Positions 5,523 through 64,000 of a DNA stretch of 64,000 nt are shown in pieces. Position 1 is the stretch's first letter. The number at the start of each line of letters is the position of its first letter. A program made the translations under genes and the position numbers. The notes under the pieces are model-generated. The model had not been told where the DNA came from and did not search any database. It saw only the letters and a list, made by a program, of their open reading frames with translations. This stretch comes from Ardenticatenaceae bacterium (GTDB taxonomy: Bacteria > Chloroflexota > Anaerolineae > Promineifilales > Promineifilaceae): contig JASJCR010000008.1 of assembly GCA_030065875.1 (NCBI GenBank), positions 16,833 through 80,832 on the forward strand, read 5' to 3'.

Positions 5523-5527
5523 AGCAA

Positions 5528-5612
5528 ATAATCAATAGTCAATATTCAATGATCAATTGTCAATGTCGGTGGTTGACCATTAATAATTGATCATTGAATA
5601 TTGATTATTGAA
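5528..5612. repeat. Heptamer repeat forming long near-perfect inverted repeat
   Basis: TCAATAGTCAATATTCAATGATCAATTGTCAA ... TTGACCATTAATAATTGATCATTGAATATTGATTATTGA. Confidence 0.92.
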
Positions 5613-13695: not shown

Positions 13696-15303
13696 TTAGC
13701 CGCTATCATCGGCCGGCTCGGGCGTTTCATCAGGTGGTGCCGGCTCAATATAATAGGCGTAGTCGGGAATCAGGTCAACTATCCTTTGGTACCCCTCGAT
13801 AATCGCCTGGCTGCTGGTGAAATAGCCGCTGAGCATCTCCTGCAGGACAATCGACATGGTGAATTCTTCATGGATGTTGGTAACCAGCGCTCCGTACCCT
13901 TCGCTAAACCCCCACCGGCTGCTGTTGGCGATGGCCGCGGTCATTTGAGCGACGGTTTCTTCTCCGTATGCATCAACCAGGGTAGGCCCATTTGGCCGCA
14001 GGGGTAATTCTTGCCAGGAGCTGCGGAACTGCTGCGGGTCGGCAGGTGTCCCCAGACGCAGGGGAATTTTGCGTTCCGGCTCTTCCGCCAGCCACGTTTC
14101 ATATCCTTCGTTTAGCCAATAGTTGATGACCGTTTTGCTCAAATCGGGATCGGCCTGCTGGGTAACGCCCAAATAGGTGTAGTGGCTAAATGCGATTGGG
14201 TCAGCTTCACCACCGCTTAATCTCGTGACAATCCCCGTGTTTTGGGCCAAAAATTGAGCGTTATCCTGACATTCCGGGCAGATCGGAACGAGCTGATTGT
14301 CTAGACCGGCCAGTAAAACCAGCGTTTCCGGATCGGTGGTGATCATCCCTGTGCGGCCGGCCAGGTACGCGTTGACGGCGCTGATGTCGGTTTGAATATC
14401 GCTGGGACTGTAGCTGTTGATCGCCAGGCGATAAAAATCAAGCGCAGCCAGACAGTCGGGGTGTAAAATTAAAATCTCACCTTTTTCATCAATTAAATTG
14501 CAGTTGTTGGCCAGCGCCCAATATTCAAAGACGTGATGGGTGGCCACCAGACCTGATTCGGTAGGAATGACGAGGCCGGAAATGAGGCTGCTGGAGATGC
14601 TGGTTTGCGCGCTCAAGGTTTCGGAGCGATAAATTTGGGAAGCCGCATCGAGAATATTGGCGTATGAATCGGGCGGATCGAGGTTGAGGGTGTTAAACCA
14701 ATCTTGCCGATAAATCGTCAGCTGCGGCCAGCCATCAGAGGGAACCGCCGCCGTTTGGTTTTCGACCTGCACCAGTTCAAGCGCCAACGGCTCGAAGGTC
14801 TCGGGATTCAGTTCCTCGACGAGCTGATCGGCCGCAGAGGGGTTGAGAATGCCGCGCTCCACCCAGCCGGCCGTAAATTCGACGGGGTGCAAAATCAAAT
14901 CGGGCAGCGTGCCGGACAAAACGGCCGTTTCGACCAGATCCGGCAGGCGCGACTGCTCCACCAAAATAAATTCCAGGTAGATCCCGTGCTGCTCGATAAG
15001 GTCCTGCTGCATCGTGGTTAACGTTTCCCGATGCTCAGCAGAGGTTTCATTGACCCACAAGGTGACCACCGGATTGGGATCAACCTGTTCAATGAGCTCG
15101 GGAGGGGCGGCGATCGGCTCACCGGTTGAATCCGGGACGGTCAAAATGACCTGGGTGGGTGTGGGTGGTGGTGGGGCATCTTGATTGGCCAGGCGGGGAG
15201 GGGTGGGCACCAGCCCCTGACAGGCGGCCAAAGTAAGAAGAATGAGACCAGAGACCAGAGACCAGAGACGGGAGACGAGAGACGAGAGACGAGAGAGTTT
15301 CAT
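13696..15303 (-). CDS. Extracellular solute-binding lipoprotein
   Basis: Signal peptide with lipobox LTLAACQG; SBP family 1-like body; signal peptide encoded by heptamer repeat. Confidence 0.8.
   Translation of the reverse strand: MKLSRLSSLVSRLWSLVSGLILLTLAACQGLVPTPPRLANQDAPPPPTPTQVILTVPDSTGEPIAAPPELIEQVDPNPVVTLWVNETSAEHRETLTTMQQDLIEQHGIYLEFILVEQSRLPDLVETAVLSGTLPDLILHPVEFTAGWVERGILNPSAADQLVEELNPETFEPLALELVQVENQTAAVPSDGWPQLTIYRQDWFNTLNLDPPDSYANILDAASQIYRSETLSAQTSISSSLISGLVIPTESGLVATHHVFEYWALANNCNLIDEKGEILILHPDCLAALDFYRLAINSYSPSDIQTDISAVNAYLAGRTGMITTDPETLVLLAGLDNQLVPICPECQDNAQFLAQNTGIVTRLSGGEADPIAFSHYTYLGVTQQADPDLSKTVINYWLNEGYETWLAEEPERKIPLRLGTPADPQQFRSSWQELPLRPNGPTLVDAYGEETVAQMTAAIANSSRWGFSEGYGALVTNIHEEFTMSIVLQEMLSGYFTSSQAIIEGYQRIVDLIPDYAYYIEPAPPDETPEPADDSG
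15243..15297 (-). repeat. 7-bp tandem repeat (CTCTSGT) inside coding sequence
   Basis: Minus strand CTCTCGT x3, CTCCCGT, CTCTGGT x3. Confidence 0.95.
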
Positions 15304-15349: not shown

Positions 15350-16129
15350 TTATTGGTTTCTTTCCGCCACGATCTTCAACCCTTCCAGGGTAAGCCATGG
15401 ATCGTAGGTTTTGATCATATCGGTGTGGGGGGCGATGACGTTGATCCATCCCCCGGTACCCACAATGTGGACATCATCACCGAGGGGGTCATAATTTTTA
15501 AGATCGTCGATGAGACGCGGAATCAACCCTTCAACCAAACCCAGATATCCAAAAACCAGACCGGATTGGATGGCGTGGGCGGTATTTCGACCAAGGGTTG
15601 CTGGTGGGGCCTGGTAATCGACCGGGCTTAATTTAGCAGCGCGTTTAAAAAGCGCGTCGGCCGTGATGCCCAATCCGGGGGAAATGACCCCACCAATCAT
15701 ATCTCCCTGCGATGTGACCACGTCGAGCTTGGTTGCGGTGCCCATGTCAACAATGATGCACGCCTTTTTAAAGCGCTCGTAAGCGGCCGAGGCGTTGAGC
15801 AAACGATCGGTGCCGACCTGGCCGGGAACGTCGGTGCAGTTGCGGATCCCCAAATCAAGCCCGGTATGAACGAACAGGGGATTGTGATGCAGATAGTGAA
15901 TGCTGACCGTCATGAAGGTTTGGGTCAGCTGGGGCACAACACTTGACATAATAACGCGAGTAATTTCTTCTTCAAGCTCATGCTCTCGCAAGAGCCCCTT
16001 CAGATAAATCCCCAGCTCGTCGGCCGTGCGATCGTGAACCGTCCGCAGACGCCAGTGCGCGCGCCATTTATCGCCACCCCACACCCCCAGCACAATATTG
16101 GTATTGCCGATATCAATGGCCAGTAACAT
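15350..16129 (-). CDS. coaX: Type III pantothenate kinase
   Basis: MLLAIDIGNTNIVLGVW, CIIVDMGTATKLDVV, GGVISPGLGI. Start at 16129; the longer ORF to 16306 reads through heptamer repeats. Confidence 0.95.
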   Translation of the reverse strand: MLLAIDIGNTNIVLGVWGGDKWRAHWRLRTVHDRTADELGIYLKGLLREHELEEEITRVIMSSVVPQLTQTFMTVSIHYLHHNPLFVHTGLDLGIRNCTDVPGQVGTDRLLNASAAYERFKKACIIVDMGTATKLDVVTSQGDMIGGVISPGLGITADALFKRAAKLSPVDYQAPPATLGRNTAHAIQSGLVFGYLGLVEGLIPRLIDDLKNYDPLGDDVHIVGTGGWINVIAPHTDMIKTYDPWLTLEGLKIVAERNQ

Positions 16130-16242
16130 AACGGCCGATTGTATAGCGAGAAACCGGCGAAGAAAAGCGGCATTAATGTTTGCAAATGGGCACAAAATGG
16201 AAAAACTGCGTTTTATATGGTAGGAGAAGGGAAATGGGAAGT

Positions 16243-16285
16243 ACGAAATACGAAGTACGAAATAGGATTTACGATTTACGATTGA
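16243..16285. repeat. Degenerate 7-bp tandem repeat (TACGAAR / TTTACGA)
   Basis: TACGAAA TACGAAG TACGAAA ... TTTACGA TTTACGA. Confidence 0.85.
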
Positions 16286-16310
16286 ACTATTGAGAGACGA
16301 TACCATTAAT

Positions 16311-20195: not shown

Positions 20196-20290
20196 GGTGG
20201 CCAAGATGAAACCAAAGCCTTGGTGTAAGGGCTTGGCTAGTAGGGGCTTGGCTAGCCAAGCCCTACACATGTTGATGGGTTAAATCGCCT
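20196..20290. repeat. Dispersed palindromic element, copy A
   Basis: GGTGGCCAAGATGAAACC...TAGGGGCTTGGCTAGCCAAGCCCTA...TTAAATCGCC; shared with 31098-31170 and 34531-34600. Confidence 0.85.
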
Positions 20291-31097: not shown

Positions 31098-31170
31098 GGT
31101 GGCTAGGATGAAACCGGTGTAGGGGCTTGGCTAGCCAAGCCCTTACTAGTGTGGATTGATTAAATCGCCC
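31098..31170. repeat. Dispersed palindromic element, copy B
   Basis: GGCTAGGATGAAACCGGTGTAGGGGCTTGGCTAGCCAAGCCC...TTGATTAAATCGCC. Confidence 0.85.
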
Positions 31171-34530: not shown

Positions 34531-34600
34531 ATGGCCAGGATGAAACCGTGTAGGGGCTTGGCTAGTAGGGGCTTGGCTCGCCAAGCCCGCGCATTGACCG
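34531..34600. repeat. Dispersed palindromic element, copy C
   Basis: GGCCAGGATGAAACCGTGTAGGGGCTTGGCTAGTAGGGGCTTGGCTCGCCAAGCCC. Confidence 0.85.
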
Positions 34601-38975: not shown

Positions 38976-39018
38976 AGAAGAGAGAAAAGAGAATAGAGAA
39001 GAGAGAAAAGAGAAGCGA
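38972..39018. repeat. 7-bp purine repeat (AAGAGAG / AAAAGAG) at gene junction
   Basis: AAGAGAG AAAAGAG AATAGAG AAGAGAG AAAAGAG AAGCGA-ATG. Confidence 0.85.
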
Positions 39019-40236: not shown

Positions 40237-40260
40237 CGGTCAACTCGTATATCTTAATTC

Positions 40261-40320
40261 GCATTTCGCATTTCGTATCTCGTATCTCGTAACTCGTATC
40301 TCGTATCTCGTATCTCGTAG
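40261..40320. repeat. 7-bp tandem repeat (GCATTTC x2, GTATCTC x6)
   Basis: GCATTTC GCATTTC GTATCTC GTATCTC GTAACTC GTATCTC GTATCTC GTATCTC GTAG. Confidence 0.95.
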
Positions 40321-56293: not shown

Positions 56294-56348
56294 TTAGCAA
56301 TTAGCAATTAGCAATTAGCAATTAGCAATTAGCAATTAGCAATTAGCA
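56294..56348 (+). repeat. 7-bp perfect tandem repeat TTAGCAA, 7 full copies plus partial running into tgt ATG
   Basis: Units at 56294, 56301, 56308, 56315, 56322, 56329, 56336; next unit TTAGCA merges with ATG at 56348. Confidence 0.97.
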
Positions 56349-63708: not shown

Positions 63709-63843
63709 AGGGGGAACCTCACGGCCAACTATACCGAATGATGGGGGAGAATCCAAGGAAATTTACGATTATTCGATTAATCGATTGATTCGATTAGCCG
63801 ATTTGTTCGATTATGCGATTGAGCCGAAAGGGGCGAAAAAAAC

Positions 63844-63872: not shown

Positions 63873-63886
63873 TTTTGAAGTTGGGA

Positions 63887-63970
63887 TCGAACCAATCGAA
63901 CCAATCGAACCAATCGAACCAATCGAACCAATCGAACCAATCGAACCAATCGAACCAATCGAACCAATCG
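63887..63970 (+). repeat. 9-bp tandem repeat TCGAACCAA, 9 exact copies plus partial
   Basis: (TCGAACCAA)9 then TCGAAAATC. Confidence 0.97.
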
Positions 63971-64000
63971 AAAATCATCTATATGTGACATCTGACCCCT

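Follow-up and report, generated by a model that had tools for sequence, protein, structure and literature searches.

The window analyzed here, a stretch of 64,000 nucleotides from an Ardenticatenaceae genome, carries on its minus strand a gene for a lipoprotein whose signal peptide is written in tandem heptanucleotides, with the pantothenate kinase gene coaX as its upstream neighbor (Table 1).

The lipoprotein gene and its repeat-encoded signal peptide

Profile and domain comparisons identify the 535-residue product as an orphan ABC-type sugar-binding lipoprotein resembling SBP_bac_1 and SBP_bac_8. A family profile searched against the PDB matched solved sugar-binding proteins, among them YcjN (8vqk_A, E 3.1e-39), and of 20 family members, 12 match SBP_bac_1 and 13 match SBP_bac_8 in Pfam. 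This relationship is visible only through the family alignment: scans of Pfam and NCBIfam with the single protein returned nothing at their thresholds (SBP_bac_1 reached E 0.0014, under the Pfam cut-off). A first contig scan with the single lipoprotein as query gave no match. In many orthologous loci, too, the lipoprotein gene directly follows the end of coaX. In the window, the coaX open reading frame spans 15350-16306, being artificially lengthened through a stop-free heptamer array (16238-16283), and its likely start, MLLAIDIGNTN, lies at about 16132.

Table 1. Features at the lipoprotein locus, in window coordinates.
Feature	Position	Strand	Evidence
Sugar ABC solute-binding lipoprotein, 535 aa (SBP_bac_1/SBP_bac_8 type)	13696..15303	-	Family profile against PDB; Pfam on relatives
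Heptamer array (CTCTCGT)3 CTCCCGT (CTCTGGT)3 CTC, 7.6 units	15244..15296	-	TRF and lag-7 scan
ATG start codon of lipoprotein	15301..15303	-	Sole upstream ATG/GTG/TTG, in any frame, with stop-free reading into the array
Lipoprotein signal peptide and lipobox MKLSRLSSLVSRLWSLVSGLILLTLAAC; Cys28 codon at 15220-15222	15220..15303	-	Cys28 invariance; sequence
coaX, type III pantothenate kinase (upstream neighbor)	15350..16132	-	Pan_kinase, 2.2e-66
GAAATAC / GATTTAC heptamer arrays preceding coaX; same repeat type with other units	16231..16283	.	TRF and lag-7 scan

Read on the minus strand from position 15303, the lipoprotein gene begins ATGAAA-CT-(CTCTCGT)3-CTCCCGT-(CTCTGGT)3-CTC-ATT, the units appearing on the plus strand as GAGACGA/GAGACCA. 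The array thus sets in 4-5 nt past the ATG, placing a 7-nt unit, which is not a multiple of three, within the 5' coding region. The repeat is confirmed as real: TRF reports period 7, 7.6 copies, 93% matches and a score of 78, the lag-7 scan gives a score of 37, and at a threshold of 12 no period-7 segment occurred in 20 block-shuffles of the window or in one block-shuffle of a 666 kb genome sample. It is also interrupted, with a longest pure run of 3.7 units. The first-pass annotation, made from the letters alone, had read the repeat and its translation (MKLSRLSSLVSRLWSLVSGLILLTLAACQG) correctly but omitted the CT between AAA and the array.

Residues 3-20 are encoded by the array, immediately N-terminal to ILLTLAAC, so that, as that annotation had proposed, the heptamers by sequence make up the n-region together with a large part of the h-region. 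Its placement of the start and lipobox is likewise borne out by the orthologues, Cys28 being invariant in 20 of 20 aligned relatives. The stretch from the array to the lipobox offers no ATG, GTG or TTG usable as a start, so translation must begin upstream of or within the array, and the ATG is the sole in-frame candidate there. In the other two frames, the sequence preceding the array contains stops and no starts. An AAAGG about 15 nt before the ATG has poor spacing for a Shine-Dalgarno sequence, which counts against this reading.

Heptanucleotide arrays in the window and genome

The idea that such an array is unique to the lipoprotein gene was rejected, as both window and genome are full of them. 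Eleven heptamer arrays with differing units (AATGGTC, GAAATAC, AGACCAC, TATCTCG, TTAGCAA and others) occur in the window, an abundance that the first-pass annotation had overlooked, and no other period is found there in comparable number. In sampled regions totaling 1.45 Mb of this genome we found about 99 heptamer arrays per Mb, with other periods at or below 9 per Mb (harmonics 14 and 21 apart), which extrapolates to more than 700 heptamer arrays in the 7.42 Mb genome. Unit classes and locations were determined in a 666 kb subset, where 80 arrays fall into 32 unit classes. By a simple ORF caller, whose N-terminal, C-terminal and internal array calls include artificial ORF extensions, 33 of these 80 are wholly intergenic and 20 lie at gene edges, although ORFs make up 88% of the sample; many arrays sit at the 3' ends of genes.

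Dispersed, far more frequent than chance and predominantly intergenic, these arrays correspond to the genome-wide heptanucleotide LSSRs described by Mrazek et al. (2007), the STRR of heterocystous cyanobacteria, the GGGAATC repeats of Xanthomonas and the TAACTGA repeats of Beggiatoaceae, and as in those genomes they are mostly short, with the heptamer as the dominant length. The published accounts emphasize a single unit or a handful per genome, whereas here tens of unit classes occur, at roughly 100 arrays per Mb and in Chloroflexota. Our search of the open-access literature on heptamers in Chloroflexi yielded nothing relevant. The arrays point to a repeat process that acts across the genome and on many units, strictly with a 7-base period.

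The plus-strand unit of the signal-peptide array, GAGACNA, has 141 matches genome-wide vs 4 for its reversed control, and 0 or 1 in each of four relatives of the same genus. Relatives carry heptamer units of their own; the unit vocabulary is therefore species-specific. Pure long tracts lie elsewhere in the genome, such as GAGACGA at C28:35399-35494, and reach 17 units in one array. Two of the long pure tracts consist of about 15 units of AATCGTA (L072, 13928-14036) and 17 units of ACCCATC (L084, 2026-2144), and both units recur at dozens of dispersed sites. In many arrays, variation is concentrated in two adjacent columns beside a constant five-base core, as in TCAATNN, CAGACNN and TACGANN (L063-L102; window 5527-5564). 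This pattern would suggest units with a fixed core and two variable bases but is statistically weak, the best adjacent column pair accounting for 72% of variants vs 63% expected. In two related genera, g5 and g22, a secondary 8-base period reaches 57-73 arrays per Mb vs 8 per Mb here (loci L043-L048, L051, L053, L054 and L163-L182).

Arrays often stand just before start codons (in the window at 38976-39014, 40258-40319 and 56294-56348), and a regulatory role has been proposed, as a precedent, for the TAACTGA repeats that precede start codons in Beggiatoaceae. That the signal-peptide array is kept as a protein- or RNA-binding element serving the junction of coaX and the lipoprotein gene is nevertheless scarcely credible, since the units differ completely across loci and species, making a single common binding protein unlikely, and many arrays occupy 3' ends. 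The purine-rich array at 38976-39014 (AGAAGAG/AGAAAAG) ends directly at the ATG that probably starts an MFS transporter gene, whose ORF is artificially extended through this stop-free stretch, and may serve as the ribosome-binding region of that gene.

Other repeats in the window include a palindromic element formed by GTARGGGCTTGGCTA and its reverse complement (20225-20255, 31119-31146 and 34550-34578); GTARGGGCTTGGCTA half-sites number 137 in the genome vs 0 for the reversed control, in keeping with an intergenic REP-like or MITE-like repeat dispersed through the genome. At 63886-63972 lies a perfect 9-mer array of ATCGAACCA with 9.7 copies, an unusual non-heptamer tract; next to it, at 63766-63822, is a degenerate array resembling CGATTATT.

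Recurrence and frame among orthologues

We examined 48 orthologous loci, about 45 of which have a readable N-terminus, some being truncated N-terminally (e.g., G001 and G043); the named relatives are MAGs labeled Promineifilum, Ardenticatenaceae and Anaerolineae. In eight of the roughly 45, this genome included, the signal peptide is built from heptamer arrays, and these eight belong to three genera and use different units. The other carriers are G028, G039 and G044 in genus g5, with GGCAAGT, ACCTGCA, ACTTTTC, TTACTGC and related units, and G025, G037, G045 and G049 in genus g22, with CATCACG, TTACCGA and CACTGCT, the arrays of both genera being longer than the one here; in G018 an array lies just upstream and is not counted among the eight. 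No such array was detected within the signal peptides of the remaining readable orthologues, and a second genome collection contributed no further case. The check suggested at the outset, whether orthologues lack the repeat, thus came out divided: most do, but seven others have an array of different sequence in its place.

On an orthologue tree built without the first 60 residues, the distribution of arrays needs four changes, of which at least three are forced by well-supported branches. The simplest reading of this tree would be three gains and one loss, the latter in G047, which lies within g22 and has a short, array-free peptide. Elsewhere in g22 a conserved GTG and the lipobox Cys stand 48 codons apart in G025, 55 in G045 and G049, and 62 in G037, the steps being exactly 7 codons or three heptamers, so that copy number differs by exactly three or six units; in G049, where the frame of this GTG is broken, translation probably starts at an ATG lying 24 nt beyond it. 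Across all eight array-carrying species, each represented by one assembly, the start codon is in frame with the body of the protein. Together, peptides with no array, with arrays of different units, and with arrays differing by exactly three units form a natural series for microsatellites becoming signal peptides.

These orthologues also bear on whether the heptamer region is instead non-coding leader or regulatory DNA, with the protein starting elsewhere and the peptide reading accidental. Most arrays in the genome are, after all, intergenic or at gene ends, and ORFs do extend artificially through stop-free arrays, both upstream of coaX and at the MFS gene. Such a reading is nonetheless largely refuted, and we regard it as quite improbable: no start separates the array from a lipobox whose Cys is invariant in 20 relatives, and arrays of differing length in g22 all leave the start upstream of them and the n-region (GEKV[TK]KxIIQN) in frame with the lipobox.

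Recurrence at one gene in three genera is somewhat above what random capture would give and could indicate that repeats are favored here. No other heptamer-made signal peptide of the lipobox type was found in the 1.45 Mb of this genome, which contains 33 lipoprotein-like ORFs (about 32 besides this gene), or in the g5 and g22 samples, which contain fewer; any estimate of a hot spot is rough, as the 8 of about 45 orthologues are non-independent, the sample is small and the g5 and g22 sampling was partly centered on the lipoprotein gene. The coaX junction is also a short intergenic gap and, as such, a typical array site. In a stronger form, the signal peptide would be a favored landing place that unrelated heptamers have taken over at least three times, the unit number of a hypermutable microsatellite setting its length and frame and allowing the population to tune or switch a surface receptor. 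We consider this form rather unlikely.

Probable capture and possible switching of the array

The array is probably an exapted intergenic microsatellite, captured as a signal peptide and thereafter constrained to its reading frame by selection. It is one copy of the genome-wide heptanucleotide population typical of Promineifilaceae-like Chloroflexota (Anaerolineae), presumably generated by slippage, and, lying in the short junction after coaX, would have become coding sequence for the n- and h-regions of the lipoprotein signal peptide. Such a capture may be easy: because 7 equals 1 modulo 3, a stop-free heptamer tract encodes the same seven-residue cycle in all three frames, and hydrophobic and basic units (CTCTCGT and CTCTGGT here, TTACTGC and ACTTTTC in relatives) could therefore readily yield a working signal peptide. 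The encoded peptide probably functions in export. Copy number would then shift by whole units, with selection probably retaining only alleles that keep the ON frame, in steps of three units, and any phase variation would be incidental. Nothing relevant on repeats within the signal peptides of lipoproteins came from a search of the open-access literature.

Phase variation of the lipoprotein gene is possible, and the first-pass annotation had proposed a contingency locus. Its premise, that the gain or loss of one unit shifts the frame, holds in silico: full-length ORFs result from 4, 7 and 10 units (528, 535 and 542 residues, respectively), alleles of 5, 6, 8 and 9 units give truncated ORFs of 51-63 residues, and no ATG, GTG or TTG in the other frames would rescue them. 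A true contingency locus would combine high-rate slipped-strand mispairing, subpopulations that are ON (4, 7 or 10 units) or OFF, and selection for variability itself. In addition to the truncating effect of single units, such a locus is suggested by the recurrence of arrays in this gene in three genera, by the variation in copy number between sister species, and by neuO of phage CUS-3 in Escherichia coli K1, a demonstrated case of phase variation that switches in exactly this manner. However, the proposal is not supported so far, and we judge it unlikely. The array is one of a genome-wide set found mostly between genes or at gene ends; its tract is short and interrupted, while the long pure tracts lie elsewhere in the genome; and eight of eight species are in frame (p ~0.0002 at 1/3 ON if independent, although the species are related and MAGs report the majority allele only). 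The gene is a testable candidate for surface-receptor phase variation in filamentous wastewater-type Chloroflexota, with a frame-constrained array, in which any switching would be incidental, being the reading that we prefer.

The coding VNTR of neuO, (AAGACTC)n, begins two nucleotides past the start codon, with RLKTQDS as the product of three units; similarly, the array described here is a heptanucleotide tract right after the start codon, in which three units correspond to seven residues and one copy-number class modulo 3 is read through. The neuO repeat, however, forms the N-terminal tail of an O-acetyltransferase rather than a signal peptide, and its tract is pure, long (2-93 copies) and OFF in most genomes (65.6% are out of frame), unlike the array here, which is short and interrupted and, as in all eight species, in frame. 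Similarly, hmw1A and hmw2A of Haemophilus influenzae tie a heptamer repeat to a surface protein, with copy number that varies along with variable expression, but there the heptamers lie in the promoter, whereas those of the lipoprotein gene lie in the coding sequence.
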